Assembly (NCBI RefSeq): GCF_015390235.1
Contig: NZ_VUOH01000002.1
Location: 1 to 64,000, forward strand
Direction: 5' to 3'
DNA from: Quadrisphaera sp. INWT6
GTDB taxonomy: Bacteria > Actinomycetota > Actinomycetes > Actinomycetales > Quadrisphaeraceae
DNA length: 64,000 nucleotides
Shown here: positions 17,560-64,000 of the stretch, piece after piece
How positions within the stretch are numbered: position 1 is the stretch's first letter
Layout: the number at the start of each line of letters is the position of its first letter
Notes under the pieces: model-generated
What the model saw: the letters and a program-made list of their open reading frames with translations, nothing else
Told to the model about the DNA's origin: nothing
Database searches by the model: none
Program-made: the position numbers and the translations under genes

Positions 17560-18398
17560 AGGATCCACGTGTCCAGCGTCCTGCGCACCGCTCCACCCGG
17601 CGCCGCGCCGACCCCGCGACCACCAGCCCCGCCACCCCCGCTGACAGCGCCGTGCGGGTCCGCCTCGAGGGGGTGGGGCGCCGCTTCGGCGACCACGTCG
17701 TGCTCGACGGCGTCGACCTCGACGTCGCCCCCGGCGAGGTCGTGGCCCTCCTCGGCCCCTCCGGGTGCGGCAAGTCCACGCTGCTGCGCGCCGTCGCCGG
17801 CCTGGACGGCGTCGACGGCGGCCGCGTGCTGCTCGACGACGGCGCCGTCCGCGACCACGACCCCCGCTGCGCCATCGCGTTCCAGGAGCCCCGGCTGCTG
17901 CCGTGGCGCTCCCTGACCGGCAACGTCGCCCTCGGCCTGCCGCGCGGCACGGCGAAGCGGGCCGGCGAGCAGCGGGTGGCCGAGCTGCTCGACGTCGTCG
18001 GGCTGTCCGGCTTCGCGGGGCACCGCCCCCGCAGCGTCTCCGGGGGCATGGCGCAGCGCACGGCGCTGGCCCGGGCGCTCGCCCGCCGGCCCGGCGTCCT
18101 CGTGCTCGACGAGCCGTTCGCCGCCCTCGACGCCCTGACCCGCCTCACCATGCAGGACCTCCTGCTCGACGTGCTGGCAGCGACCCCGACGACGGTGCTC
18201 CTGGTGACGCACGACGTCGACGAGGCGCTGCACCTGGCCGACCGCGTCGTCGTCCTGGGGCGCGAGGAGGGGCACGACGGCGCCCGGGTGGTCCGCACCA
18301 CCGCCGTCGACCTGGCCCACCCGCGCGACCGCGGCGACGCCCACCTCGCGTCGCTGCGCGCCGAGCTGCTCGAGCTCCTCGGCGTCCCGCGCGCCTGA
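17556..18398 (+). CDS. ssuB: Aliphatic sulfonate-type ABC transporter, ATP-binding protein
   Basis: Nucleotide-binding subunit of a sulfonate/taurine-class importer. Walker A GPSGCGKST, Q-loop region AFQEPRLLPW, signature SGGMAQR, Walker B VLVLDEPFAALD and switch His in LVTHDVDEA. The start is unresolved. In the correct frame the only ATG is 17556, inside the riboswitch P1 strand. A well-placed GGAGG (17558-17562) points instead to GTG 17569, which is in a different frame. Third-position G/C suggests the frame changes near 17590. Either a one-base indel exists or ATG 17556 (or internal GTG 17652) is used. Sulfur role inferred from the SAM riboswitch and downstream genes. Confidence 0.85.
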   Translation: MEDPRVQRPAHRSTRRRADPATTSPATPADSAVRVRLEGVGRRFGDHVVLDGVDLDVAPGEVVALLGPSGCGKSTLLRAVAGLDGVDGGRVLLDDGAVRDHDPRCAIAFQEPRLLPWRSLTGNVALGLPRGTAKRAGEQRVAELLDVVGLSGFAGHRPRSVSGGMAQRTALARALARRPGVLVLDEPFAALDALTRLTMQDLLLDVLAATPTTVLLVTHDVDEALHLADRVVVLGREEGHDGARVVRTTAVDLAHPRDRGDAHLASLRAELLELLGVPRA

Positions 18399-18488
18399 CG
18401 CGCCCCGCGCCAGCACCTCCTCACCCGCACCACGCCCGTCCCACCGCGCCGACGCCCCGCGCTCCCCGCGCCGACCTCTGGAGACCCC

Positions 18489-19547
18489 ATGACCAGCACG
18501 TCCCTGCCCAGCACCCCCTCCCGCCGCTCCCTGCTCGGGCTACTCGCCCTGGCGCCCCTCGGCGTCGCCGGCCTCAGCGCCTGCGCCCAGGGCGAGGACG
18601 CCTCCGGCGCGGCACCCGCCGCGAGCGCCGCCGGCTCCTCCTCGGCGGCCGCCCGCACGCTCACCCTCGACTTCGCCACCTACAACCCGCTCAGCCTCGT
18701 CATCCGCGACCAGGGCTGGCTGGAGGACGAGCTCGGCGGCCAGGGCGTCACCGTGGAGTGGGTGCAGAGCGCCGGCTCCAACAAGGCCAACGAGTTCCTG
18801 CGCAACGGCAACATCCAGGTCGGGTCGACGGCCGGCGCCGCCGCGCTGCTGGCCCGCTCGAACGGCTCCCCCATCAAGACGATCGACGTCTTCAGCCAGC
18901 CGAACTGGTCGGGCGTGGTGGTGGGCCCGTCGTCGACGATCACCGACGTCGCCGGGCTGCGCGGCAAGCGCGTGGCGGCCACCACCGGCACCGACCCCTA
19001 CTTCTTCCTCGTGCAGGCGCTGGAGCAGGCGGGGCTGAGCACCTCCGACGTCACGCTGGAGAACCTGCAGCACGCCGACGGCCGCTCCGCCCTCGACGCG
19101 GGCAACGTCGACGCGTGGGCGGGGCTCGACCCGATCATGGCCGCGGCCGAGGCCGAGAGCGGCGACGAGATCATCTACCAGAACATCGACTTCAACTCCT
19201 ACGGCTTCCTCAACGCCCGCGAGGACTTCCTGGCCGAGCACCCCGACCTCGCGCAGGCCGTCGTGAACGCCTACGAGAAGGCCCGGGCCTGGGTGCCGCA
19301 GAACGTCGAGGCGACGACGGCGCTGCTCGCCGAGGTGGCCGGCATCGCCCCCGAGGTCGCGACGACGACGCTCGGCCGCACCAAGCTCGACATCTCGCCC
19401 GTGCCGGGGGCCACGCAGACCGCGGTGCTGGAGAAGATCGGCCCGCTGTTCGTGGCCAACGGCGACGTGCCCGACCAGGGGGCCGTCGACACCGCGCTGG
19501 GGAGCCTGTTCGACACCACGTACGCCTCGAAGGCGGACCCCTCGTGA
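18489..19547 (+). CDS. ssuA: Sulfonate-type ABC transporter substrate-binding lipoprotein
   Basis: 352 residues. Twin-arginine-containing start (SRRSLLGLL) and lipobox LSAC give a lipid-anchored extracytoplasmic receptor. The mature part is of the NMT1/SsuA class: TLDFATYNPLSLVIRDQGWLEDEL, QSAGSNKANEFLRNGNIQVG, and TGTDPYFFLVQALEQAG. The start ATG 18489 has TCTGGAG just upstream. There is a 90-bp gap after ssuB. It overlaps ssuC by 4 bp. Ligand inferred as an organosulfonate or sulfate ester from the SAM-riboswitch operon; alkanesulfonate monooxygenase is not in the window. Confidence 0.85.
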   Translation: MTSTSLPSTPSRRSLLGLLALAPLGVAGLSACAQGEDASGAAPAASAAGSSSAAARTLTLDFATYNPLSLVIRDQGWLEDELGGQGVTVEWVQSAGSNKANEFLRNGNIQVGSTAGAAALLARSNGSPIKTIDVFSQPNWSGVVVGPSSTITDVAGLRGKRVAATTGTDPYFFLVQALEQAGLSTSDVTLENLQHADGRSALDAGNVDAWAGLDPIMAAAEAESGDEIIYQNIDFNSYGFLNAREDFLAEHPDLAQAVVNAYEKARAWVPQNVEATTALLAEVAGIAPEVATTTLGRTKLDISPVPGATQTAVLEKIGPLFVANGDVPDQGAVDTALGSLFDTTYASKADPS

Positions 19548-20428
19548 GCGAGGTGGTCACCGACGGGCGGAGCGCGCAGGCCCAGGGCCTGGGTGGCTCC
19601 GGCGACCCGTCGTCCCCTCGCGGTGTGCGCGCAGGCTTCAGTCCCCGCCGCCCCGCGCAGGCGGGCGCCACGGGCTCGCGCCGGCGGCTCTCCCCCTGGT
19701 GGGGCGCGCTGCTGCCGCTGGCGCTCCTCGGCGTGTGGCAGCTGATCACCAGCACCGGCGCCTACCCGGCATCGCAGCTGCCCTCCCCCGCCGCCGTCGT
19801 GCGCGCCGCCGGCGACCTGTGGGAGCGGGGCCTGCTGCAGCAGCACATCGCCATCTCCGCGCAGCGGGTCTTCGTCGGCTTCGGCCTGGGCGCCGCGGCC
19901 GGCCTGGTGGTCGGGTCGCTGGTCGGCCTCTCGCGCTGGGCCGACGCGCTGCTCGGCCCCACGATCGGGGCGCTGCGCGCCGTCCCGTCGCTGGCGTGGG
20001 TGCCGCTGCTGCTCCTGTGGATCGGCCTGGGCGAGCCCCCGAAGCTCACCCTCGTCGCCATCGGGGCGTTCTTCCCCGTCTTCACGACGACGGCGTCGGC
20101 GCTGCGCCACGTCGACGCGAACCTCGTGGAGGCGGGCCGGGCGTTCGGGCTGCGCGGCGTCTCGCTGCTCACCCAGGTGCAGCTGCCGGCCGCCGTCCCG
20201 GCGGTCATCGCCGGGCTGCGGCTCGCGCTGGCGCAGGCGTGGCTGTTCCTGGTCGCGGCCGAGCTGCTGGCCTCGTCCATCGGGCTCGGCTACCTGCTGA
20301 CCGAGAGCGTCAACAACGGTCGGACCGACCGGATCTTCCTGGCGATCATCACGCTCGCCGTCCTCGGCAAGCTCAGCGACGCGGTCGTGGGCCTGTTCGA
20401 GCGGTGGGCCCTGAAGAGGTGGGCATGA
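19544..20428 (+). CDS. ssuC: Sulfonate-type ABC transporter permease
   Basis: 294 residues starting at GTG 19544, overlapping the ssuA stop (GTGA). A ~45-residue polar N-terminus precedes six predicted membrane segments. The EAA loop is visible as EAGRAFGLRGVSLLTQVQLPAAVPAVIAGL, with G at the conserved position, typical of the SsuC/TauC class. It forms the membrane channel with SsuB. Its stop overlaps the acs start by 4 bp (ATGA), so the acetyl-CoA synthetase is translationally coupled to the transporter. Confidence 0.88.
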   Translation: MSEVVTDGRSAQAQGLGGSGDPSSPRGVRAGFSPRRPAQAGATGSRRRLSPWWGALLPLALLGVWQLITSTGAYPASQLPSPAAVVRAAGDLWERGLLQQHIAISAQRVFVGFGLGAAAGLVVGSLVGLSRWADALLGPTIGALRAVPSLAWVPLLLLWIGLGEPPKLTLVAIGAFFPVFTTTASALRHVDANLVEAGRAFGLRGVSLLTQVQLPAAVPAVIAGLRLALAQAWLFLVAAELLASSIGLGYLLTESVNNGRTDRIFLAIITLAVLGKLSDAVVGLFERWALKRWA

Positions 20429-53069: not shown

Positions 53070-54086
53070 TCAGGCGGGGCGCAGCAGGGGGACGACGTCC
53101 TCGGTGAACTGCGTCAGGAACCGCGTCTGGTCCTGCCCCGGACCGTGGAAGACCAGGTGGTCGAACCCGGCCTCCACGTAGCCCGCCACCGCCTGGGCCA
53201 CCTGCGCCGGGTCATCAGCCACGATCCACCGCTTGGCCACCTGCTCGATCGGCAGCTCATCAGCCAGGCGCCCCATCTCCACCGGGTCGTGCACCTGGGC
53301 CTTCTGCTCCGCCGACAGCGACAGCGGCGCCCAGAACCTCGTGTTCTCCAGGGCGCGGTCGTGGTCGCGGTCGTAGGACAGCTTGACCTCGATGGTCCGC
53401 TCGATGTCGGCCTCGGTGCGCCCGGAGGCCTCCAGCCCCTCGCGCAGGGAGGGCAGCAGGGTGTCCTGGTAGAGGTCCATGCCCTTGCCGGAGGTGCAGA
53501 TGTACCCGTCGCCTGCGCGCCCGGCGTACTTGGTCACCCCCGGCCCGCCGGCGGCGATGAACACCTGCACCGGCACCTGCGGCTTGTCGTAGACCGTCGC
53601 GTCGTGCAGGCGGTAGTACTCCCCCTCGAAGGTGACCCGGTCCTCGGCCCACAGCGCCCGGATCAGGCGGACCGCCTCGCGCAGGCGCGCGAAGCGCTCC
53701 CGGGTCTGGGGGAAGTCCGCCCCGACGGCGTGCTCGTTGAGGGCCTCCCCGGTGCCCACGCCGAGGATCACGCGCCCCGGTGCCAGGCAGCCCAGGGTGG
53801 CGAAGGCCTGGGCGATGACGGCGGGGTTGTAGCGCAGGGTGGGGGTGAGCACCGAGGTGCCCAGCTGCACGCGGGTGGTCTTGGCCGCGGCCCAGCCCAG
53901 CCAGGTCAGGGCCGAGGGGGCGTGGCCGCCTTCGTGGCGCCAGGGCTGGAAGTGGTCGGAGATCCACACCGAGTCCAGGCCGGACTCCTCGGCCTGGACG
54001 GCGTAGTCGGCCAGCTGGGCGGGGTCGAACTGCTCCGCGGAGGCCTTGTACCCGATCTTGAGCTCACGGCGGGCGCTGCCCGTCAC
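53070..54086 (-). CDS. fgd: F420-dependent glucose-6-phosphate dehydrogenase family protein
   Basis: 338 residues of the luciferase-like monooxygenase fold. Very similar by eye to mycobacterial Fgd1: [28 protein letters not shown] (contains the His/Trp active-site segment), [23 protein letters not shown] (quoted in part), [10 protein letters not shown] with the catalytic Glu, [16 protein letters not shown], and [16 protein letters not shown]. Fgd oxidises glucose-6-P and reduces F420, supplying F420H2. GTG 54086 overlaps the amidase stop by 4 bp, so it is co-translated with a catabolic cluster, which is unusual. It may be a paralogue; check for another fgd elsewhere. Confidence 0.88.
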
Positions 54087-54934
54087 AGCGCCCCGCTCGA
54101 CAGGGCGGAGTACAGGTCGGGGCGGCGGTCACGCAGGAACGGCCGCGACGCCCGCGTGCGCGCCACGAGGTCGGTGTCGAGGTCGGCGACGGCCACACCG
54201 TCACCGGAGTCGACGACAGCCAGCACCTCCCCGCTGGGCCCGTACACCGCGCTGGTGCCGAAGTAGTCCTTCGCGCCCTCGCAGCCGGAGCGGTTGGCGC
54301 AGACCACGTAGAAGCCGTTGGCCACGGCCTGGGCGCGCAGCTCCAGCTGGAACACCTCCTTCATGGGGGCGCTGGCGCAGGCCACGGGGACGGCCAGCGC
54401 CACCCCGCCGTCCAGCGCCACGCAGCGGCCCAGCTCCGGGAAGTGCCGCTCGTAGCAGATGATCGTGCCGACCCTGCCGACCGTGGTGTCGACGGCGCGG
54501 GGCGGCTCCTGCCCGGGGCGGAAGTAGAACTTCTCGGGGAAGCCGTTGGAGAACGGCAGGTGCGACTTGCGGTAGACGTGCGCCAGCTCGCCGGCGACGA
54601 ACGTGCACGCCGTGTTGGCGTAGACGCCCGGCGTGGACAGCTCCTCGAAGACCGAGCTGACCACTGTGATGCCCAGCCGGCCCGACAGCTCGGCCACGAG
54701 CGCGTTCGACGGCCCGTCCAGCGCCTCGGAGTGCACGAAGAAGCCGGGGTCGGGCTCGGGCTGCACGAACGGCGCGGCGAACAGCTCCGGCAGCACCACC
54801 AGGCCGGCGCCGTCGGCGGCGGCCTGCTCGACCAGGCCGGCGGCGGCCTCGAGCACGTCGTCGCGCCCGCGGCCGGTGGCCAGCTGGACGGCGGCGACCC
54901 GCGTCGCCCCGGCGGGCGCAGGGGCGGCGCTCAT
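54083..54934 (-). CDS. Carbon-nitrogen hydrolase (N-carbamoylputrescine amidase / beta-ureidopropionase type)
   Basis: 283 residues of the nitrilase superfamily with catalytic Glu50 (VLPELF), Lys123 (YRKSHLP) and Cys160 ([10 protein letters not shown]). CYERHFPE plus FYFRPG are typical of N-carbamoyl-putrescine or N-carbamoyl-beta-amino-acid hydrolases. It would release CO2 and ammonia from an N-carbamoyl product. ATG 54934 overlaps the aminotransferase stop by 4 bp, and its own stop overlaps the Fgd start. Second such enzyme in the cluster; the two differ clearly in sequence. Confidence 0.87.
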
Positions 54935-56298
54935 GCGCGCGCCGCCTCGAGGTCGGCCTCAGCGAGGACCTCGTCGAGGATGCCGAGCGCGTGCGCGACC
55001 TCCTCCTCGCTGATGACCAGCGGCGGGGTCAGGCGCACCACGTTGTTGTTGGCGCTGAGGTACAGCCCACGCCGCCATGCCGCGGCGACGATGCGCTGCA
55101 TCGGGGCCGCGGCCGCACCGGCGGCGCCGAAGGGGACGAGCGGCTCCTTGGTGGCCGGGTCCTTGACCAGCTCGACGCCGTAGAAGAGGCCGACGCCGCG
55201 CACGTCGCCCATCACGGGGTAACGCTGCTGCATCGCCCGCAGACCCGCCTCCAGCTGCCGCCCCCGGGCGCGCACGTTGGAGAGCACGTCCTCCTCCTCC
55301 ATGATCCTCAGTGAGGCGAGGGCGCTGGCTGCCGCGAGCGGGTGCCCGGCGTAGGTCTGACCGCCCCAGAACTTGTGGGTCATGAGCCACTCGCGCGAGC
55401 GCTCCCCGACCGTCATGGCGCCCAGCGGCACGTAGCCGGAGTTGAGCCCCTTGGCCGAGGTGACGATGTCGGGTACCACGCCCCAGTTGTCCACCGCGAA
55501 GTACTGCCCGGTGCGGCCCCAGCCGGCCATGACCTCGTCGCAGATGAGGAAGATGCCGTGGCGGTCGCACACCTCGCGGATGCTGGCCAGGTAGCCGTCC
55601 GGCGGCACGAGGATGCCGTTGGTGCCCGTGACGGTCTCGATGATGACCGCCGCGATGGTGGAGGGGTCCTCGTACTGCAGCACCTCCTCCAGGTGCGGGG
55701 CGCCGAGGCAGACCGGGTCCTGCTCGGGGGGCAGCCCGCTAGCGGTCCGGTAGGCGTACGGGTCGTGGAACCTCACGACCCCGGGCACGCCGGGCCCGCC
55801 GATGTGGTGGTGGCGCGGGTCACCGGTCAGCGTCAGCGCTCCAGCCGTGGCCCCGTGGTAGGAGCGGTAGCGGGCCATGACCTTGGCTCGGCCGGTGATG
55901 TGCTGGGCCAGCCGCACGGCGTTCTCGTTCGCCTCGGCGCCGCCGGTGGTGAAGAAGCTCATCTCCAGGTCGCCGGGCGCCACGCGGGCGATGGCCTCCC
56001 CCAGCTCGGCGCGAACGCGCACCGCGAAGTTCGGACCCATGTAGGCCATCTGCCGCACCTGGTCGACGATCGCCTCGACCAGCTTGGGGTGCTGGTGCCC
56101 GAGGTTGAGGTTCACCAGCTGCGACTGGAAGTCCAGGTAGCGGTTGCCCTCTGTGTCCCAGAACCAGCAGCCCTCGCCGCGCTCGACCGCGGCCTGCGCG
56201 GGGGTGCCCTGCACCGACCACGAGCGGATGACGTAGCGCTGCTCGGCGTCGATGATGCGCTGGGTGGTCCAGGCCTCGGCCTCCAGCCCCAGGCTCAT
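54931..56298 (-). CDS. Class III PLP aminotransferase (beta-alanine/omega-amino acid:pyruvate type)
   Basis: 455 residues from ATG 56298 (overlaps the preceding stop by 4 bp). FTTGGAEANENAVRLA, YRSYHGATAGALTLTGD, ICDEVMAGWGRTG (PLP-ring Asp) and TSAKGLNSGYVPLGA with the PLP lysine define the fold-type I omega-transaminase class. Beta-alanine or 3-aminoisobutyrate as donor would fit pyrimidine breakdown; putrescine-like donors are an alternative. Central member of the 53-64 kb cluster. The N-terminal WSVQGTPAQAAVERGEGCWFWD is typical of this subclass (quoted loosely). Confidence 0.9.
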   Translation of the reverse strand: MSLGLEAEAWTTQRIIDAEQRYVIRSWSVQGTPAQAAVERGEGCWFWDTEGNRYLDFQSQLVNLNLGHQHPKLVEAIVDQVRQMAYMGPNFAVRVRAELGEAIARVAPGDLEMSFFTTGGAEANENAVRLAQHITGRAKVMARYRSYHGATAGALTLTGDPRHHHIGGPGVPGVVRFHDPYAYRTASGLPPEQDPVCLGAPHLEEVLQYEDPSTIAAVIIETVTGTNGILVPPDGYLASIREVCDRHGIFLICDEVMAGWGRTGQYFAVDNWGVVPDIVTSAKGLNSGYVPLGAMTVGERSREWLMTHKFWGGQTYAGHPLAAASALASLRIMEEEDVLSNVRARGRQLEAGLRAMQQRYPVMGDVRGVGLFYGVELVKDPATKEPLVPFGAAGAAAAPMQRIVAAAWRRGLYLSANNNVVRLTPPLVISEEEVAHALGILDEVLAEADLEAARA

Positions 56299-56858
56299 CG
56301 GGCGACCTCCGCGCCGAAGGTGGCCAGGCGGGCGAGGGGGCGGCCGGTGCTGGCCGCCACGCACGCGATGACGATCTCGTCGACGCGGGGCGCGTCGGGC
56401 ACCACCAGCGTCACCGTCTGGTGGTGGCTGCGGGTCTTGGCGTCGGTCTTGTGCTTGAGGGGGACGTCGATCGAGGCGCCCAGCAGCCCGACCTTCTCCG
56501 CTGCGGGCAGCAGCTCGGTACCGCCGGCGGCGTTGCGGAACTCGTTGCCGAACTTCAGGTTGTGGATGATCGCCGAGCCGTGCTCGACCTCGCCTCCGGC
56601 GCCGACCAAAGCGGCCTTGCCGAAGGCCTCGACGGGCTCACCGAGCAGCTCCACGCACGCGGGTCCGATGAGCGCCCCCACCTCCTGGCCGTTCGCGTCA
56701 GCCAGGGTGACGAGGTCCTCGACGTAGCCGTCGGTGCCGTACGGGTTCTCGATGACCACGGCCACCCAGGCGAGCACGTGGCGGACGGGCAGGTCGCGGC
56801 CCTGCTCGCGCAGGGTCTCCTCGCGGTGGCGGACGATCTTGCGGACGGTGATGCTCAT
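56295..56858 (-). CDS. PF06684 'amino acid synthesis' (DUF1185) family protein
   Basis: 187 residues. ITVRKIVRHREETLREQGR, AVVIENPYGTDGY, LLGEPVEAFGKAALVGAGGEVEHGSAIIH (quoted in part) and GASIDVPLKHK are hallmarks of this family. Despite the family name the reaction is not established to my knowledge; homologues accompany amidohydrolases and LLM enzymes in catabolic clusters. ATG 56858 lies 17 bp after the amidase stop; the stop overlaps the aminotransferase start. No catalytic residues can be named with confidence, but the Glu-His of GEVEHGSA is conserved. Confidence 0.78.
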   Translation of the reverse strand: MSITVRKIVRHREETLREQGRDLPVRHVLAWVAVVIENPYGTDGYVEDLVTLADANGQEVGALIGPACVELLGEPVEAFGKAALVGAGGEVEHGSAIIHNLKFGNEFRNAAGGTELLPAAEKVGLLGASIDVPLKHKTDAKTRSHHQTVTLVVPDAPRVDEIVIACVAASTGRPLARLATFGAEVAR

Positions 56859-56875
56859 GGTGGTCTGGCTCGCTC

Positions 56876-57751
56876 TCAGGCGCGGGTGGGGTCGAGGGAT
56901 GACGACGAGGGCGCCGTCGGTGGCGGCTCGTGCACGTAGGCGGTGGGCTCCCGGTCACCCAGGGGGCGGTTGAAGGGGTCCTCGCGGCGCGCCCGGCGGG
57001 AACCGACGGGATCGATCCGCGCGGTGAGGATCGCGGGGACGTCAGGGGCGGGACCGGCGAGGACCCACCCGTCGTGGCCGACGACGACGCTGTCGCCGAT
57101 GAAGCGCTGCCCGCGCTCGGTGCCCACGCGGCTGCACGCCGCGACGTACACCTGGTTGGAGTGGGCGTTGGCCATGGTCATGACGTTGGCCAGCGACGGA
57201 CCGGGCTGCTGGTGGGGGTTGGGCACCCAGTCGCTGGGCGCCAGCACCAGGTCGGCGCCCTGCAGCGCGAGGCTGCGGGTGCTCTCGGGGAACCACGCGT
57301 CGTAGCAGATGATCATGCCGACGCGCCCGAACGGCGTCTCCACGACGGGAAAGGAGTCGCCGCGGTCGAAGACCAGCTTCTCGGAGTTCCAGAGGTGCAC
57401 CTTGCGGTACACGCTCTCGACGCCGCGGGGCGAGACGAGGACGGCGCTGTTGTAGACGCGGCCGTCGCTCAGCTCGTTGATGCCCCCGCACACCCAGGCG
57501 CCGGTCTCGTCGGCCACAGCCTGCCAGGCGCGGACCACGGGCCCGTCCAGCGGCTGCGCGCAGGCGAGCGACTCGGCGTAGTCGTGGAAGGCCCACCCGG
57601 CGCTGGCGCACTCGGGCAGCACCACCAGCGACGCACCAGCCGCAGCGGCCTCGCGGACCGCGGCGGTGGTGAGGTCGGCGTTGGCCTCGACGTCACCGAT
57701 GACGGGGTCGACCTGGGCGCAGGCGATGGTGAACGCCGTGCCGCTGGTCAT
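56876..57751 (-). CDS. Carbon-nitrogen hydrolase (nitrilase superfamily amidase)
   Basis: 291 residues. ATG 57751 has AGGAGG 4-5 nt upstream. Triad Glu47 (VLPECASAGW), Lys117 (YRKVHLW) and Cys149 (IICYDAWFPE). Likely hydrolyses an amide or N-carbamoyl group in the cluster's pathway. Because of the frameshift in the upstream binding-protein gene, the two are formally one open frame of 709 codons (56876-59005). The strong ribosome site and intercistronic hairpin argue for separate translation. C-terminal tail (AYVHEPPPTAPSSSS) is unconserved. Confidence 0.86.
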   Translation of the reverse strand: MTSGTAFTIACAQVDPVIGDVEANADLTTAAVREAAAAGASLVVLPECASAGWAFHDYAESLACAQPLDGPVVRAWQAVADETGAWVCGGINELSDGRVYNSAVLVSPRGVESVYRKVHLWNSEKLVFDRGDSFPVVETPFGRVGMIICYDAWFPESTRSLALQGADLVLAPSDWVPNPHQQPGPSLANVMTMANAHSNQVYVAACSRVGTERGQRFIGDSVVVGHDGWVLAGPAPDVPAILTARIDPVGSRRARREDPFNRPLGDREPTAYVHEPPPTAPSSSSLDPTRA

Positions 57752-57796
57752 GGGGCCTCCTGGGCAGTGGTCGCTGGTGGTGGTGGGGTGGGTGGA

Positions 57797-57843
57797 GGTG
57801 GGTGCGGGAAGGTTCCGGGGGGGCGCCCCTTCCCGCACCCACC
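57797..57843 (-). terminator. Intercistronic hairpin between binding-protein and amidase genes
   Basis: Perfect 15-bp stem GGTGGGTGCGGGAAG (57797-57811) with 57829-57843; the 17-nt loop is G/C-rich. It begins 3 nt after the restored stop (57847) of the binding protein. Such hairpins often stabilise the upstream binding-protein message and lower downstream expression. Confidence 0.65.
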
Positions 57844-57846
57844 GGC

Positions 57847-59005
57847 CTACTTGCCGCCCTCGGTGAGCTGGACGGTGGCGGGGGTCCAGCTGGCTCCGCT
57901 GGCGTCCACCCCCGTCCGCCTCCAGCAGCTCCAGCGCCGCGTCGTTGAGGTCGGTGCGGTAGGCGCCGGCGTCCGGGGCGGCAGCGAGCACGCCGCCGTC
58001 GACACCCACCTGGACGGTCCTGTCCCAGGCCTCCTTCGACATCGCGCCGATGCCGCTGGTGGAGGGCCAGATCAACTTGTTGATCTCGTTCATCATGAAC
58101 GCCTGGTGCGAGCGGCCCAGAGCGCTGCCCTGCGCCACCACGGTGTCGACGCACGAGTCGGCGTCGTCGCGGCAGTGGATCCAGCCCTCGTCGGTGGCGG
58201 CGATGAAGCGGGTCGCGATGTCGGCGTTGTCACCCTGCTCCAGCCAGGCCTGCTGGGCGTAGACACCGTCCTCCAGCGTGCCGAAACCGAGGTCCTGCAG
58301 GTCCAGGGTGCTGAAGTCCGAGGGCTGGTACAGCTGGCCGGTGGCGGGGTTCACCGTCTCCAGCAGCTGCGCGTACTCGTTGTAGGTCTTGGCCTGCACC
58401 GAGTCGGCCTCGCGGTTGAGCAGCAGTGACATGTCGAAGGGCTGCTGCACCACGGTCACGTCCTTGGCGGGGTCGACGCCCGAGGCCTTCATGGCCGCGA
58501 AGAGCGTCAGCTCGTTGCCGCCGCCCCAGCTGCCCAGCGTCGTTCCCTTCAGAGCCGTCAGCGAGGTGATGCCGCTGTCGGCCCAGGAGACCTGCAGGTA
58601 GGCGCCCCGCTCGAAGGTCTGGCTGATGTTGACGATGTCGGCGCCCTGCTCGCGCGAGGCCATCGACTTGATGACGTGGCTGACTGCGAACTGCGCGTTG
58701 CCGCTGGCCAGCACCTGCTGGGGGACGACGTTGGTGCCGCCCTCCTGGATGGTGACGTCGAGGCAGCGCTTCGCGTAGTCGCCGTTCTCCTTGGCGGCGT
58801 AGTACCCGGCGAACTGCGCCTGGGTGACCCACTGGAGCACCACGGTGACCTCGTCGACCTTCGCGCAGTCGGCGCTCGAGGCCGCCGCGGCCGCGGCGGT
58901 GGATGAGGTCGTCGCCTCGGACATGCCGCCGCAGGCGGACAGCGCGGCGACCGCGCCGAAGGCGCCGAGGAGGGCCGCGCCGCGGCGGAGGGTGGAGGTG
59001 AGCAC
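57847..59005 (-). CDS. ABC transporter substrate-binding lipoprotein (THI5/NMT1 type), one-base frameshift near 3' end
   Basis: ATG 59005; lipobox LSAC gives a lipoprotein. VTVVLQWVTQAQFAGYYAAKENGDY and LASGNAQFAVSHVIKSMA (quoted in parts) are THI5/NMT1-class receptors, used for pyrimidines, riboflavin and related compounds. The frame ends naturally as GVDASGASWTPATVQLTEGGK and TAG (57847-57849) if one base is removed from the C5 run at 57908-57912; corrected length 385 residues. As given, it instead reads into the amidase gene. Either an assembly indel or a real frameshift. It is the importer's receptor; the two permeases and ATPase lie upstream. Confidence 0.82.
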
Positions 59006-59058
59006 GTGATGGCCTCGCGTTCGTCGGAGGGGCGGGGTGGGTGGGGTGGAGCGGGGAC

Positions 59059-59085
59059 CCCGGCGCCGCGGGTGACGGCGCCGGG
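59059..59085 (-). other. Small hairpin between permease and binding-protein genes
   Basis: 9-bp stem CCCGGCGCC/GGCGCCGGG (59059-59067/59077-59085) in the 112-bp gap before the binding-protein gene. May separate high expression of the receptor from the permease message. A ribosome site for the receptor (GGAGG-like) is not obvious; GAGGCC is the nearest. Confidence 0.45.
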
Positions 59086-59117
59086 AAGGCTGGTGGTGGC
59101 TCGCGGAGGGGCGGGGG

Positions 59118-59936
59118 TCAGCCGCTGGTGGCGGAGCGCCAGGGCACGGCGACGCGCTCGACCAGCGCGATGAGGCCGTAGAGCGACAGGCCCAGGAGGC
59201 TGGCCACGAAGACCGCGGCCCACGTCTGGTCGAAGCGCGACATGGCGGCGGTGTTGGCGATCAGCACGCCCAGGGCGTTGGAGGTGCCGCCGAAGTACTC
59301 GGAGACGATCACGGCGATCACCGACAGGGTGGCGCCGACGCGGAGCCCGTCGAACAGGGCGGGCAGCGCACCCGGGAGCCGCACGTGCACGAGCAGCTGT
59401 CGGCGGCTCGCCGAGACCGACTGCATGTACTCGCGGTGCGTCGGGGACACGGCCAGCAGCCCGCGCGTGGTGTTGACGACCACGGGGATGGTCACGGACA
59501 GGGTCGCGACCGCCACCTTGGAGGCGATCGAGGTGCTCCCCAGCCAGGCGTTGAAGATGGGCGCGAGGGCGACGATGGGGGCGCAGCCGGCCAGTGCGAC
59601 CAGGGCCAGCACCACCCGCGCGACGCCCTCGAACATCGCGATGACCACGGACGCGAGCACTCCGAGTGCAGCACCGGCGAGCACCGCGAGCACGACGGCC
59701 GTGGCCGTGGGACGCGCCGCCGACAGCAGGGCCGGAGCATCGCTGACCACCGCCTGCGCGATGGCGCTGGGGGCGGGCAGAAGGTAGGCCTGCACCCCGC
59801 CGACGAGCACCACGAGCTGCCAGGAGAGCAGGAGCACCACGCCGAGGACCGCTGCGGGCGCCAGGGCCGACAGCAGGCCCCGGCCGCGGCCGCGGGACAG
59901 CCTGACCGGGCGCTCGACGGGAACGAGCGCGCTCAC
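59118..59936 (-). CDS. ABC transporter permease 2 (nitrate/pyrimidine type)
   Basis: 272 residues, GTG 59936 overlapping the ATPase stop by 4 bp. Six membrane spans; EAA loop region EYMQSVSASRRQLLVHVRLPGALPALFDGLR (quoted in part), with SEYFGGTSNALGVLI after it. BPD_transp_1 class as in ThiX/SsuC. It differs from permease 1, so the channel may be a heterodimer. Three-gene ABC part plus receptor is the layout seen for reductive pyrimidine pathways. Confidence 0.87.
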   Translation of the reverse strand: MSALVPVERPVRLSRGRGRGLLSALAPAAVLGVVLLLSWQLVVLVGGVQAYLLPAPSAIAQAVVSDAPALLSAARPTATAVVLAVLAGAALGVLASVVIAMFEGVARVVLALVALAGCAPIVALAPIFNAWLGSTSIASKVAVATLSVTIPVVVNTTRGLLAVSPTHREYMQSVSASRRQLLVHVRLPGALPALFDGLRVGATLSVIAVIVSEYFGGTSNALGVLIANTAAMSRFDQTWAAVFVASLLGLSLYGLIALVERVAVPWRSATSG

Positions 59937-60748
59937 AGCCCGGCCGTGGTCGGCTCGAGGACGGCGTGCAGGCGCTCCCGGACGTGCCGCTCAGCGGCCT
60001 GGAACTCGTCGGTGAGGCGGGTCTCGTCGGTGCGCGGGTAGGGCAGGTCGACCGGGATGCGGGAGGCGATGCGCCCGGGCCGCGGCGACATCACGACCAC
60101 CTCGGTGGACAGGAACACCGCCTCCGGGATGCTGTGGGTGACGAAGACGACGGTGGTGCCGGTGGCGCGCCAGATGCGCAGCAGCTCTCGCTGGAGGTGC
60201 TCCCGGTTCATCTCGTCGAGGGCGCCGAGGGGCTCGTCCATGAGCAGCACGCGCGGCTGCATGGCCAGGGCGCGTGCGATGGCCACGCGCTGCTGCATGC
60301 CCCCGGAGAGCTGGCGGGGGCGGTGGTCGGCGAACTGCGTCAGCTTGACCAGCTCGAGCATCTCGTCAGCGCGCTGGCGGCGCTCGGCCCGCCCGACGCC
60401 CTGCACCTGCAGCGGCAGCTCGATGTTGCGGCGGACCGTGCGCCAGTCCATGAGGCCGGGCGCCTGGAAGGCCATGCCGTACTGGCGGGTGCGGCGCGCC
60501 TCGGCGGCGATGGTGCCGGCGACCTCGACGGTGCCGGTGGTGGGGGTGACGAGGTCTCCGATGACGCGCAGCAGAGTGGACTTGCCGCACCCCGACGGGC
60601 CGAGCAGCGACACGAAGCCGCCCTCGGGGATGTCGAGGTCGATGTCGTCGAGGGCGACGACGTCGCCGCTGCTCGTGGAGAAGGTCTTGCTGACGCCGGC
60701 CAGGCGGATGGCGGTGCCGGTGGGGGTCGGGGTGGTGGGGGTGGTCAT
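59933..60748 (-). CDS. ABC transporter ATP-binding protein (nitrate/sulfonate/pyrimidine type)
   Basis: 271 residues. Walker A GPSGCGKST, Q-loop MAFQAPGLMDW, signature LSGGMQQRVAIARAL, Walker B VLLMDEPLGALDEM and switch His in FVTHSIPEA. ATG 60748 shares one base with the permease 1 stop (TGATG). Energises the two-permease importer. The open frame upstream of 60748 is not coding. The N-terminal TTPTTPTPTGT is a short unconserved leader. Confidence 0.9.
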   Translation of the reverse strand: MTTPTTPTPTGTAIRLAGVSKTFSTSSGDVVALDDIDLDIPEGGFVSLLGPSGCGKSTLLRVIGDLVTPTTGTVEVAGTIAAEARRTRQYGMAFQAPGLMDWRTVRRNIELPLQVQGVGRAERRQRADEMLELVKLTQFADHRPRQLSGGMQQRVAIARALAMQPRVLLMDEPLGALDEMNREHLQRELLRIWRATGTTVVFVTHSIPEAVFLSTEVVVMSPRPGRIASRIPVDLPYPRTDETRLTDEFQAAERHVRERLHAVLEPTTAGL

Positions 60749-61695
60749 CAGTGCTCCCTCTTCGACAGGACGAGGCGCTCGGCGAGGGCGATGACCTGCA
60801 CGAAGACCACTCCCGCGAGGGAGGCCACCAGCACGGCGGCGTACAGGTTGGCCGGGGCGAGCGAGTAGTAGTAGGCGGCGGTGAGGATGGCCCGGCCGAT
60901 GCCCAGGCCGGCTCCGGCGCTCAGCTCGCCCACCACGGCGCCCACCACCGAGGCGGTGGCGGCGAGGCGCAGGCCGGTGAAGAAGCTCGGCACGGCCGCC
61001 GGCACTCGCACGAGCAGCAGGGTCTGCAGCGGCGAGGCCGCCACCGAGCGCATGAGCTCGACGTGCGTCAGGTCGGCGGAGAGCAGCCCGGTGGCGGTGT
61101 TCAGCGTCACCGGGAAGAAGGCGAGGTAGGCCGAGATGACGGTGACGGCCACCCAGCTGGGGAAGCCGGCGCCACCGATCCAGACGACAACGATGGGCGC
61201 CAGGGCCACCAGCGGGATGGTCTGCGAGACCACCAGCCACGGCATGCTCGCGCGCCCCAGCCACGGGAGCTGGCGCATCAGCAGGGCGAGGCACACGCCC
61301 ACCGCGGCCCCCAGCGCCAGGCCGTAGGCGGCCTCGCGCAGCGTGACGCTGGTCTGCTGGAGGTAGTAGGCGAGCAGCGTCTGGTCCGACGCGGTGGAGG
61401 CCGGGCCGGCCAGCGCGGCGAGCACCTGCCAGACGTGCGGCATGGCGGCGTCGTCGGTGGCCACCGGGAGCGGCAGCGAGGTGAGGGGGACGAGGTCGCC
61501 CGTGGCCTGGCCGAGCGCCTTGTACCCCTCCCAGGCGAGCAGGGCCATCGCGATGACGGCGGCGGCGGTGGCCAGGTCGCGCAGGGTGCGGCCCAGCTGC
61601 CGCGACGCCCCGCGGCGCGCGCGGACGGGGGGCGGGGGCGCCGCTGGCGGCGCGACCGCTGCGCTGGGGCGCGGGGCCGTGCGGGTGGCTGCCAT
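60748..61695 (-). CDS. ABC transporter permease 1 (nitrate/pyrimidine type)
   Basis: 315 residues from ATG 61695 (MAATRTAPRP), with GGGAG 5 nt upstream. A ~45-residue alanine/proline-rich cytoplasmic start precedes about six membrane helices; EAA loop ELMRSVAASPLQTLLLVRVPAAVPSFFTGL (quoted in part) and PTNLY-like end. First gene of the importer operon, directly behind the promoter/operator at 61726-61776. An upstream ATG at 61776 would include the operator and is rejected. Confidence 0.87.
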   Translation of the reverse strand: MAATRTAPRPSAAVAPPAAPPPPVRARRGASRQLGRTLRDLATAAAVIAMALLAWEGYKALGQATGDLVPLTSLPLPVATDDAAMPHVWQVLAALAGPASTASDQTLLAYYLQQTSVTLREAAYGLALGAAVGVCLALLMRQLPWLGRASMPWLVVSQTIPLVALAPIVVVWIGGAGFPSWVAVTVISAYLAFFPVTLNTATGLLSADLTHVELMRSVAASPLQTLLLVRVPAAVPSFFTGLRLAATASVVGAVVGELSAGAGLGIGRAILTAAYYYSLAPANLYAAVLVASLAGVVFVQVIALAERLVLSKREH

Positions 61696-61725
61696 GGGTC
61701 TCCCTCGACTATCCGGTTCATTCAC

Positions 61726-61776
61726 CGGACCATTGGTCCGATATAAATGATCCTGGCTGTACCGGGTTTCCGTCAA
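61726..61776 (-). promoter_or_regulatory. Promoter and palindromic operator of the importer-catabolic operon
   Basis: On the minus strand: -35 TTGACG (61776-61771), 18 bp, -10 GATCAT (61752-61747), then the perfect 15-bp palindrome CGGACCATTGGTCCG (61740-61726) at about +1 to +15. This fits repression, most simply by the adjacent IclR-family protein. The tract is locally A/T-rich, unlike its surroundings. Confidence 0.6.
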
Positions 61777-61849
61777 CGGCGTCTCGTGTGAACTCCGTGT
61801 TTCCGCCGCATCGGCCGGCGCGTCGTCGCGACGCGCCGTGACGCACGGA

Positions 61850-61876
61850 CGCCCCGCCGACGGCGTCGGCGGGGCG
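61850..61876 (-). terminator. Terminator hairpin after the IclR gene
   Basis: Perfect 12-bp stem CGCCCCGCCGAC/GTCGGCGGGGCG (61850-61861/61865-61876) with 3-nt loop, 60 bp after the IclR stop. It separates the hydantoinase-LLM-iclR unit from the importer operon. Confidence 0.65.
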
Positions 61877-61936
61877 CAGGGCGGTAGGACGTCGCGGCGG
61901 GGTGAGCGGGTGGAGGGCCCGAGGGGGTTACCGCGG

Positions 61937-62785
61937 TCAGTACCCGGCCGCGAAGGCCGCGACGCCGGGCCCGAGCCCGGAGCGCTCCAGGAGGGCGCCC
62001 AGCCGCTGGGCCTGGGAGGTGACCACCTCGACGGCGGAACTGAGGCGCTCCTCGGTGAGGCGGTAGTGCGGGCCGCTGGTCCACAGCGCGTAGGTGACCT
62101 GGCCGTGCACGCGCACCGGCGCCGCCACCGCGGTCAGGCCCTGCTCGAGCTGGCTCTGCGTCACCGCGTACCCGCGGGCGCGGATGGCCGCGAGCTCCGC
62201 GGCGAGGTCGTCGAAGGACCGGAAGGAGGTCAGGGGCGGCTGGGACGCGTCGCGCTCGAAGGAGGCGCGCGCCACGTCGGGGTCCTCCCAGGCGAGCAGG
62301 ACCCGACCCGTCGACGTCCTCCAGCTCGACAGCAGGCGCGGGACGCGCCGCGGGGCGTGGCCGATGAGGTGCGGCCCGGGAACCTCCACGATGACCATCG
62401 CCTGGTCACCGCTGAGCCTGTCGACGCCAGCGGTCTCCCCGGTGGCCCGCGCCACGTCGGTCAGGACGTCGCGCACGCCGCGGGTCACCGACTCCTCGGT
62501 GGCGAGCCCCTCGGTCATGAAGAGCAGGTCGAGGGAGAGCCGCACCCTCCGGGTCAGCGGGTCGGAGACCAGCCAGCCCTCCGCCTCCAGGGCGGTGGCC
62601 ACGCGGTGGCACGTGGCCTTGGCGATGCCGCTCTCGCGGGACAGGTCGGACAGGCCGATGCCCTCGGGGTAACCGGCCACCGTCCGCACCACCACGACGG
62701 TCTTCTGCACGAGGCCGAGCTCGCTGCCGCGGGCGGCTCCCGCCCCGTCGGCGGAGCCGGGAGCGGTGCTGTCAGGGGTGCTCAT
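61937..62785 (-). CDS. IclR-family transcriptional regulator
   Basis: 282 residues, ATG 62785 (4-bp overlap with the LLM gene). Winged helix-turn-helix at ~25-85: LVQKTVVVVRTVAGYPEGIGLSDLSRESGIAKATCHRVATAL (read in parts). The IclR effector domain follows: STGRVLLAW, AIRARGYAVTQSQLEQGLTAVAAPV (quoted in part). It probably binds CGGACCATTGGTCCG at 61726-61740 and responds to the pathway substrate. Both inferences rest on position. Confidence 0.88.
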   Translation of the reverse strand: MSTPDSTAPGSADGAGAARGSELGLVQKTVVVVRTVAGYPEGIGLSDLSRESGIAKATCHRVATALEAEGWLVSDPLTRRVRLSLDLLFMTEGLATEESVTRGVRDVLTDVARATGETAGVDRLSGDQAMVIVEVPGPHLIGHAPRRVPRLLSSWRTSTGRVLLAWEDPDVARASFERDASQPPLTSFRSFDDLAAELAAIRARGYAVTQSQLEQGLTAVAAPVRVHGQVTYALWTSGPHYRLTEERLSSAVEVVTSQAQRLGALLERSGLGPGVAAFAAGY

Positions 62786-63789
62786 CGGAAGTACCTCCCC
62801 AGGGCGTCGATGGTCGCCATCTTGGTCGGTCCGAGCGGGTTGAGGACGGGGACGCGCACACCGGCGGCGTGGTACTCCTCCAGCTTGGCCGCGGCGTCCG
62901 CCGTCGTCCCGGCCGCGGCGACGCGGTGCACGGCCTCGTCGGGCACCAGCCGCATGGCGCGCTTGACGTCCTCGGGGCGCGCGGGCCAGCCCGCCACCTC
63001 CTGCAGGCGCGTCACCAGCTCCGCCTCGACGCCGCAGTGCTCGGCGATGTGGGGCTGCTGCATCAGGTACAGCGCGAGGAAGGCCCGGCACTCGTCGACG
63101 GCGGCGGCCGGATCGGCGTCGTCGACGGCCACGGCGACGGCCTGCGTCACGTCGAGGGAGGTGGTGCCGTCGGTGCGCTTCGCCACCCCCCGGCCGATGG
63201 CCGCGCTCGCGCCCTCGAGGTAGGAGACCGGCAGCAGGAAGTCGAGGTAGACGCCGTCCATCACCTCACCCGCCAGCTCGAGCATGCGGGGACCGACGGC
63301 GCCCGCGTAGACGGGGATGTCGACGGCGGTGTTCTCGGCGTACATCCGGTCGAAGCGGACGCCGTCCACGTGCACGAACTGGCCGTGATGAGTGACCTCC
63401 TCGTTCGCGAAGAAGCGCTTGAGCACGTCCACGTACTCGCGCATCGCGGTGACGGGCTTGGTCACGGGGGTGCCGACGCGACTGGCCAGCGGCTCCCACC
63501 ACGCCCCCAGCCCGCAGACCACGCGGCCGGGGGCCAGCTCGTCGAGCGTCTTGAACGTCACGGCCATGAGCGCGGCGTTGCGGGTCTTGTTGTTCACCAC
63601 CCCCGAGCCGATCCGCACGGTGCGCGTCCGCTCGGCGAGGATCGCCATCAGCGTGACCGCGTCGCGGGTGAGGCGGCCCTCGGCCACCCACAGCGAGTCG
63701 AAGCCGTGCTCCTCGGCCAGCTCGGCGGCGGCCCAGGTCTCGGACAGGGTGAAGCGCTCACCGAGGTGCACGCCGAGCTGGATGCGCAT
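62782..63789 (-). CDS. LLM-class flavin/F420-dependent oxidoreductase
   Basis: 335 residues, ATG 63789. Luciferase-like TIM barrel: MRIQLGVHLGERFTLSETW, EEHGFDSLWVAEG, RIGSGVVNN, and LGAWWEPLASRVG; the C-terminal half has MDGVYLDFLL. The pattern resembles F420-dependent methylene-H4MPT reductase-like LLM enzymes rather than RutA uracil monooxygenase, which is longer in its conserved N-terminus. Cofactor (F420 or FMN) cannot be decided from sequence. It sits between the hydantoinase-like gene and iclR, so it likely acts on the same ring substrate. Confidence 0.82.
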   Translation of the reverse strand: MRIQLGVHLGERFTLSETWAAAELAEEHGFDSLWVAEGRLTRDAVTLMAILAERTRTVRIGSGVVNNKTRNAALMAVTFKTLDELAPGRVVCGLGAWWEPLASRVGTPVTKPVTAMREYVDVLKRFFANEEVTHHGQFVHVDGVRFDRMYAENTAVDIPVYAGAVGPRMLELAGEVMDGVYLDFLLPVSYLEGASAAIGRGVAKRTDGTTSLDVTQAVAVAVDDADPAAAVDECRAFLALYLMQQPHIAEHCGVEAELVTRLQEVAGWPARPEDVKRAMRLVPDEAVHRVAAAGTTADAAAKLEEYHAAGVRVPVLNPLGPTKMATIDALGRYFR

Positions 63790-63842
63790 GGGGTCTCTTC
63801 TCTCGTGGGGGTCCGGGGCCGGGGCAGCCGTCAGGGCTGCGG

Positions 63843-64000
63843 TCAGGGCTGGCGGGAGCGGTGCAGGTAGGTGCCGCGTCCACGCCGCAGGCCGGGCGCC
63901 GGCTCGCCGTCGACCGAGACCAGCTCGCCGCGCGAGTAGACGGCGGCGGGCGCACCGGTGACGCGCATCTGCTCGTAGACGCTGTAGTCGGCCAGGCTGT
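63843..64000 (-). CDS. Hydantoinase/dihydropyrimidinase, C-terminal end (runs off right edge)
   Basis: The last ~52 residues: SLADYSVYEQMRVTGAPAA then VYSRGELVSVDGEPAPGLRRGRGTYLHR (quoted in parts) and a TGA at 63845-63843. ADYSVYEG…VxGxPxxVxSRGexVxxDGe…GrGxfl is the standard C-terminus of D-hydantoinases and dihydropyrimidinases, the cyclic amide hydrolases that open dihydrouracil or hydantoin rings to N-carbamoyl amino acids. The metal-binding residues lie off the window. It is 53 bp upstream of the LLM gene, same strand. Confidence 0.8.
   Translation of the reverse strand, partial: SLADYSVYEQMRVTGAPAAVYSRGELVSVDGEPAPGLRRGRGTYLHRSRQP

Follow-up and report, generated by a model that had tools for sequence, protein, structure and literature searches.

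A putative F420-linked operon for reductive pyrimidine degradation in Quadrisphaera sp. INWT6 and its actinobacterial relatives

The first 64,000 bases of contig NZ_VUOH01000002.1 (1,065,298 bases) from the 4.2 Mb genome of Quadrisphaera sp. INWT6, here called the window, end inside a 12-gene minus-strand operon that runs from the start of a dihydropyrimidinase/D-hydantoinase gene (HYD) at 65264 down to fgd at 53070. Judged from sequence, the chances are evenly balanced that this operon encodes a reductive degradation of pyrimidines in which a luciferase-like (LLM) oxidoreductase, LLM1, dependent on reduced coenzyme F420 (F420H2), acts as a non-orthologous replacement of PydA. An earlier note on the window had proposed the import and degradation of a pyrimidine-like N-heterocycle with F420-type redox chemistry, a proposal that gains support from the conserved core around LLM1 and from its linkage to F420 genes.

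Conservation of the core and its link to coenzyme F420

An alignment of LLM1 was scanned against 84,980 species genomes and returned 311 stretches with a relative, the best 80 of which were kept as 79 loci. Thirty-three of these (L030-L062; 58-92% identity to LLM1) make up the orthologue group, beyond which identity drops to 49% or less; 44 loci whose LLM enzymes are 40-46% identical (L065-L108) form the control group, and L063 and L064 stand in neither. The orthologous loci span Streptomyces, Micromonospora, Dactylosporangium, Microbispora, Nocardioides, Gordonia, Leucobacter, Microbacterium, Agrococcus, Arthrobacter, Acidimicrobiia and others. With presence scored by tblastn under identity cut-offs, and with several of the 33 loci being incomplete contigs, the second CN-hydrolase (CN2) and the class III aminotransferase (AT) were each detected in 32 loci, HYD in 29, the IclR-family regulator in 28 and the PF06684 protein in 27, so that the families grouped by the earlier note, namely HYD, CN2, AT and PF06684, do co-occur strongly with LLM1. 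The importer and the first CN-hydrolase follow (binding protein 21, ATP-binding cassette (ABC) ATPase 20, CN1 18), together with F420 genes (NADPH:F420 reductase 17, cofC 10, fbiC 8, fgd 2) and accessory genes (aldehyde dehydrogenase 12, alcohol dehydrogenase 5, glutamate dehydrogenase 4, NCS1 carrier 3, thiamine-diphosphate (ThDP) enzyme 3).

At laxer cut-offs, HYD, CN2, AT, PF06684 and an F420 reductase were found in 31, 32, 32, 28 and 17 of the orthologous loci against 5, 3, 2, 0 and 1 of the 44 controls (Fisher P 3e-7 to 4e-18), where the control counts may be low, the controls coming from other lineages and the tblastn queries being actinobacterial. At 31-53% identity, two Chloroflexi controls (L077 and L091) have genes for the binding protein, ABC components, HYD, CN2, AT and an LLM enzyme. 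The proteins LLM1, HYD, AT and CN2 have pairwise distances that correlate with one another at 0.89-0.94, values reached by none of 500 permutations, and the core has therefore been inherited or transferred together. Within the genus the cluster is accessory: an LLM1 orthologue occurs in one of five other genomes (G143, 92%), the best matches of the other four being at most 38%; G143 and L030 share the same gene positions and are thus not independent. LLM1 relatives were also found in 202 plasmid records, all below 60% identity, and those among the matches listed are haloarchaeal.

The second line of evidence concerns the cofactor. The last gene of the operon, fgd (53070..54086), scores 501.1 bits against the Fgd equivalog cut-off of 420 (TIGR03554), and Fgd was for that reason rejected as a ring enzyme; the earlier placing of LLM/F420 enzymes where PydA would be holds for LLM1 and fails for Fgd, which would supply cofactor rather than act on the ring. 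The gene closes the operon both in the genus of the window and in Microbacterium (L031). Among the 31 loci that lack fgd, 17 have an NADPH:F420 reductase, lying directly between LLM1 and CN2 in 16 loci and elsewhere in the cluster in the 17th (L057); the reductases of L036, L050 and L059 pass TIGR01915, and the others were assigned by similarity. Across 19 of the 33 loci, then, against 1 of the 44 controls, the LLM enzyme is accompanied by one or the other of two unrelated F420-reducing enzymes. Because Fgd and NADPH:F420 reductase both charge F420 in bacteria, LLM1 most likely consumes F420H2, that is, reduces its substrate. Where the earlier note had left the redox chemistry to F420H2 or flavin mononucleotide (FMN), the former is now favoured and the latter disfavoured by these 19 loci and by the resemblance of LLM1 to Mer, the F420-dependent methylene-tetrahydromethanopterin reductase.

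Genes of F420 biosynthesis accompany several loci. In L038 and L043 cofC follows CN2, over its cut-off in both, and fbiC follows CN2 in L043 (1469.7 bits against 1018) and, by similarity, in L037, L046, L047, L049 and L054. The Microbacterium locus has cofC and cofD just past fgd and an fbiC-like gene upstream of HYD, with its CofG half over and its CofH half below the respective cut-off; Leucobacter has cofE, assigned by similarity, and a cofC-like gene below its cut-off (84.8 against 105). At the distant Aeromicrobium locus L064, HYD adjoins fgd (547 against 420), and within the same 21 kb are a cofD that exceeds its cut-off, an fbiC-like gene and part of a cofE. The genome of the window itself carries cofD (315.8 against 257.45), as befits an F420-making host, and cofD exceeds its cut-off in 32 of the 34 genomes searched, that of L058 yielding fragments only. 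Separately, a proteobacterial metagenome-assembled genome has a distant LLM1 homologue followed by an NADPH:F420 reductase (L085:10989-11600; 199.2 against 149.8), without the hydantoinase set.

LLM1 (62782..63789; PF00296, 204 bits) has the luciferase-like TIM-barrel fold and is nearest to F420 enzymes, its best matches in the PDB, by sequence and by fold, being Mer structures, with Adf and Fgd next. Identity to Mer is only 26-28%, and a true Mer was rejected on a score of 162.9 bits against the TIGR03555 cut-off of 348.7. A RutA-like or FMN oxygenase was likewise rejected, on fold ranking and F420 linkage: RutA structures rank far below Mer, and the RutA family TIGR03612 is absent among the best 25 of 29 families for LLM1, the lowest of which scores 25.6 bits. 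The Fgd protein, for its part, reaches 49.7 bits against the TIGR03612 cut-off of 498.3.

Operon architecture and the predicted route

The genes are read in the order HYD, LLM1, IclR, permease 1, ATPase, permease 2, binding protein, CN1, PF06684, AT, CN2 and fgd. Every gene type listed in the earlier note was recovered by profile matches on the minus strand, to which the operon coordinates given here refer, and the operon is not interrupted at the window edge. The short overlaps described earlier are present at six junctions, with 4 bp shared at LLM1/IclR (ATGA), ATPase/permease 2, PF06684/AT, AT/CN2 and CN2/fgd and 1 bp at permease 1/ATPase; the remaining junctions are gaps of 53 bp (HYD/LLM1), 17 bp (CN1/PF06684), 112 bp (permease 2/binding protein), about 95 bp (binding protein/CN1) and about 160 bp or more upstream of permease 1, whose start codon is uncertain. 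The CN2/fgd overlap ties fgd physically to the catabolic genes, and that of LLM1 and IclR likewise ties LLM1 to the regulator (61937..62785; PF01614 and PF09339).

In the proposed route, uracil, thymine or a close relative would be brought in by an importer consisting of permease 1 (60748..61776, the longest frame; PF00528), the ABC ATPase (59933..60748; PF00005), permease 2 (59118..59936; PF00528) and an NMT1/THI5-type substrate-binding protein (57847..59005; PF09084). Within a G-run near 57910 the reading frame of the binding-protein gene shifts, and in this assembly it continues into CN1 (709 aa); because a same-genus relative (L024, 93% identical there) has the gene intact, with a normal end and 385 aa, the shift is most simply put down to an error of sequencing or assembly. 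Elsewhere in this genome a second fgd copy (G000:C3:497971-498958) is split over two frames, and the two cases together suggest either assembly errors at G-runs or decay that is real. At E <= 0.001 the intact 385-aa protein has three PDB relatives, namely 4nmy, 3ix1 (formylaminopyrimidine-binding protein) and THI5, two of the three being weakly matched thiamine-pyrimidine proteins; the only solved relative of the NCS1 carrier in the related locus L059 is the hydantoin carrier Mhp1. Well outside the operon, on the plus strand of the window (17765-20428), lies another apparent binding-protein/ABC permease set, judged from reading frames only.

LLM1 would pass a hydride from F420H2, provided by Fgd, to the C5=C6 bond of the imported ring, and HYD would open the dihydro ring to an N-carbamoyl-beta-amino acid. 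The hydantoinase end that was noticed earlier (63843..64000) belongs to a complete gene, read past the window edge on the same contig (63843-65264), whose product scores 465.9 bits against the cut-off of 393.25 for TIGR02033, the PydB (dihydropyrimidinase) family; its best PDB relative is the D-hydantoinase 1k1d, and H61, H63, K157, H189, H245 and D321, which we take to be metal ligands, are invariant in 29 alignment rows. The carbamoyl group would then be taken off as ammonia and CO2 by CN2 (54083..54934; PF00795, 150 bits), a predicted N-carbamoyl amidohydrolase, or by CN1 (56876..57751; PF00795, 184 bits). Neither reaches an equivalog cut-off, and their PDB relatives include beta-ureidopropionases: CN1 is best matched by 3ivz ('nitrilase / beta-ureidopropionase', E 1e-38) and CN2 by 6mg6, followed by N-carbamoylputrescine amidohydrolases, with E50, K123 and C160 of CN2, presumably the catalytic triad, invariant in 30 alignment rows.

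The amino group of the resulting beta-amino acid would be transferred to 2-oxoglutarate by AT (54931..56298), a predicted beta-alanine/omega-amino-acid transaminase, yielding malonate or methylmalonate semialdehyde. AT scores 537.4 bits against the PRK06062 cut-off of 472, a family described as hypothetical protein, and is best matched in the PDB by the taurine:2-oxoglutarate aminotransferase 6jix; glutamate dehydrogenase lies beside CN2 in four loci, which fits a 2-oxoglutarate-dependent AT. Oxidation of the semialdehyde by an aldehyde dehydrogenase, whose gene is in the cluster in 12 of the 33 loci and not here, would be aided by the PF06684 protein, and the aldehyde and alcohol dehydrogenases of some relatives could be counterparts of MSDH and PydE.

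The PF06684 protein (AAS; 56295..56858; 177 bits), a predicted semialdehyde-handling helper, has E90, E92, H93, H145, R173 and R177 invariant in 28 alignment rows, and within the cluster its gene usually adjoins that of AT, the enzyme that would produce the semialdehyde. According to the accessible part of the literature, TgnF of trigonelline degradation, called homologous to HcdD, is said to stimulate succinate-semialdehyde oxidation, an effect that the authors could not observe for HcdD, the PF06684 family member of 7-hydroxycoumarin degradation (PMC7913881); the analogy with TgnF suggests a similar aid to semialdehyde oxidation in the present operon.

On plasmids, PF06684 occurs in 388 records, and four among 25 listed were examined, from Arthrobacter, Sulfitobacter, Shinella and Bosea. 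Its neighbours in Arthrobacter and Shinella are genes for an LLM enzyme, a flavin reductase and an aldehyde dehydrogenase, and in Bosea they are aldehyde dehydrogenase and alpha/beta hydrolase genes, with no LLM gene among them. On the Sulfitobacter plasmid (NZ_CP081112.1; L122) a PF06684 pair adjoins genes annotated as 6-hydroxynicotinate reductase, UPF0280 and molybdopterin-binding hydroxylase, possibly a reductive pyridine pathway on a plasmid. Tandem pairs are also found in other members of the order, accompanied by alpha/beta hydrolase, aldehyde dehydrogenase and LLM genes (L029), by hydrolase and aldehyde dehydrogenase with no adjacent LLM in the same genus (L025; G101:C7), or by aldehyde dehydrogenase and LLM (L026). 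We take these sets to be trigonelline-like, and they look like trigonelline-type clusters of varying completeness; PF06684 is therefore a marker of heterocycle or semialdehyde catabolism in general, and its use as a marker of the whole pathway was rejected.

Evidence against the proposed pathway and its rivals

Several observations weigh against an F420-dependent pyrimidine pathway. LLM1 reaches the cut-off of none of its 25 best NCBIfam families and passes no curated F420 cut-off. The gene fgd itself is present in only two of the 33 loci, one of them in the same genus; the co-occurrence of Fgd with the cluster thus proved thin, amounting to these two and the distant Aeromicrobium L064, and what holds is the other F420-charging enzyme found instead in 17 loci. 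No F420 gene was detected within the examined flanks of 14 of the 33 loci, and the Agrococcus genome (L032) carries the cluster with no cofD match, which, if that assembly is complete, speaks against a strict need for F420 in this organism. Enrichment of cofD in the family of Microbacterium was not significant (5 of 6 cluster carriers, which we assume all belong to that family, against 87 of 199; P ~0.06). In three of the 33 loci, all Nocardioides (L045, L051, L057), a ThDP enzyme of ~535 aa sits between AT and LLM1 at the place of HYD, and the best hydantoinase of such genomes is only 35% identical to HYD; in L045 and L051 the gene for this distant hydantoinase also lies in the same locus, in divergent orientation. 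Furthermore, a plain uracil pathway has no need of CN1, of PF06684 or of the zinc alcohol dehydrogenase found in five loci, and the substrate, reaction and enzyme activities of the operon are inferred, the exact ring not being fixed by its genes.

A complete pydA next to the hydantoinase, which the earlier note held would refute its proposal, was not found beside HYD: a single DHO_dh-family gene turned up in the genome, at C6:322401, and the PydA/PreA family NF006183 was over its cut-off in none of 32 cluster genomes (that of L037 left out). The same profile was over its cut-off in none of 296 genomes of the class, the window's own included, with at most five candidates scored per genome, and in 2 of 14 control genomes in both the cluster and the class search. 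Because of this class-wide result the absence is unspecific and uninformative, and it was dropped as evidence.

Since CN1, PF06684 and the alcohol dehydrogenase go beyond what uracil needs, a modified pyrimidine is a live rival, if an unlikely one. The alcohol and aldehyde dehydrogenases present in some clusters would first oxidise the side chain of a compound such as the hydroxymethyl-pyrimidine of thiamine or 5-hydroxymethyluracil, which would then be reduced by F420H2 and hydrolysed. The NMT1/THI5 kind of importer and the thiamine-pyrimidine relatives of its binding protein, weakly matched as they are, would agree with such a substrate, and two CN-hydrolases would suit an acetamide step and a carbamoyl step. 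The alcohol dehydrogenase occurs in five loci, each of which also has an aldehyde dehydrogenase gene, and the one scored is nearest the N,N-dimethyl-4-nitrosoaniline (NDMA)-dependent type, just below its cut-off (424.9 against 440); yet this gene is missing from the window's operon and undetected in 28 of the 33 loci, and neither the 12 operon proteins nor the neighbours tested included a recognisable thiaminase, TenA or deaminase.

A different ring altogether, such as a cyclic imide, a pyridinone, a hydantoin with an exocyclic double bond or a purine-derived hydantoin, is about equally improbable, and would turn the operon into the F420 version of a reductive pathway for nicotinate or uric acid. 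Imides too are opened by enzymes of the hydantoinase family, and the Sulfitobacter PF06684 genes lie beside one annotated as 6-hydroxynicotinate reductase. An F420 luciferase-family reductase has moreover been predicted in uric-acid clusters of Chloroflexota, as stated in the accessible part of that work (PMC12507026). However, carbamoyl-type CN-hydrolases with an omega-aminotransferase suit a ureido acid better than an imide, and the 12 operon proteins, to which the search was confined, include no recognisable counterpart of SsnA, XdhD, YgeW, YgeY or YgeX.

That LLM1 is a flavin-dependent oxygenase or an ordinary LLM enzyme in an oxidative, RutA-like ring opening, with the F420 genes as chance neighbours, is very improbable, for although RutA shares the LLM fold and PF06684 elsewhere accompanies flavin reductase and LLM pairs, LLM1 is far closer to Mer than to RutA, the 12 operon proteins include neither a recognisable flavin reductase nor any recognisable Rut protein, and F420-charging genes are concentrated in the orthologous loci as described above.

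Relation to known systems and significance

Reductive pyrimidine degradation is described, in the accessible part of the source, as the series PydA-PydB-PydC-PydD-PydE/MSDH, with PydA variants that are Fe-S flavoproteins of one family and draw on NAD(P)H or ferredoxin (PMC7332683). The operon resembles the Pyd system in uniting a dihydropyrimidinase, a likely N-carbamoyl hydrolase and an omega-aminotransferase in one cluster, joined by an aldehyde dehydrogenase in some relatives, and in the same logic of dearomatisation, hydrolysis and transamination; it differs in having a luciferase-fold F420-type enzyme at the place of PydA, a PydC counterpart of the CN-hydrolase kind, and PF06684 and a second CN-hydrolase as extras. 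With the Rut pathway it shares an LLM-fold enzyme in pyrimidine breakdown, RutA being an FMN oxygenase.

In picrate degradation (Npd genes) an LLM enzyme is paired with an NADPH:F420 reductase, as in the operon's relatives, and to our knowledge neither a dihydropyrimidinase nor an omega-aminotransferase takes part. The accessible text of a 2021 review of F420 presents picrate breakdown (Fht) as actinobacterial catabolism begun by hydride transfer from F420H2 to the ring by an LLM enzyme, in that case with a nitroaromatic carbon ring and a xenobiotic substrate; picrate is the actinobacterial catabolic case it names, and 'uracil' and 'hydantoin' are absent from its main text (PMC8498797). The nearest precedent, as far as the accessible part of the work extends, is the 2025 prediction for Chloroflexota uric-acid clusters, in which a proposed F420 LLM enzyme replaces another reductase before hydrolytic opening of an N-ring; that pathway is a purine pathway with SsnA and related genes in another phylum, and linkage to Fgd/Fno or F420 biosynthesis goes unmentioned in the same text (PMC12507026). 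HcdD offers a further likeness, as a member of the same Pfam family from a heterocycle operon whose ring, in the available description, is reduced and then opened (PMC7913881), although the rings of the TgnF and HcdD systems are not pyrimidines. A literature search, whose coverage took in few subscription journals, returned nothing that, by its title or abstract, deals with an F420-dependent pyrimidine reductase.

The wider proposal is held with slightly less confidence than that for the operon, a little short of an even chance: that actinobacteria have a complete F420-dependent pyrimidine degradation, that LLM1 is a luciferase-fold uracil/thymine reductase evolved independently of PydA, and that the island travels with its cofactor supply, be it Fgd or NADPH:F420 reductase and in some genera also cofC, cofD and fbiC, thereby filling a class-wide PydA gap. 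Pyrimidine reduction is among the best-known catabolic reactions, and its performance by a deazaflavin enzyme of unrelated fold would, if true, be a clear case of non-orthologous replacement. The hypothesis proposes functions for a so far unassigned LLM family, a PF06684 subgroup and two CN-hydrolases, and under it aerobic actinobacteria would use F420 in a natural catabolic process.

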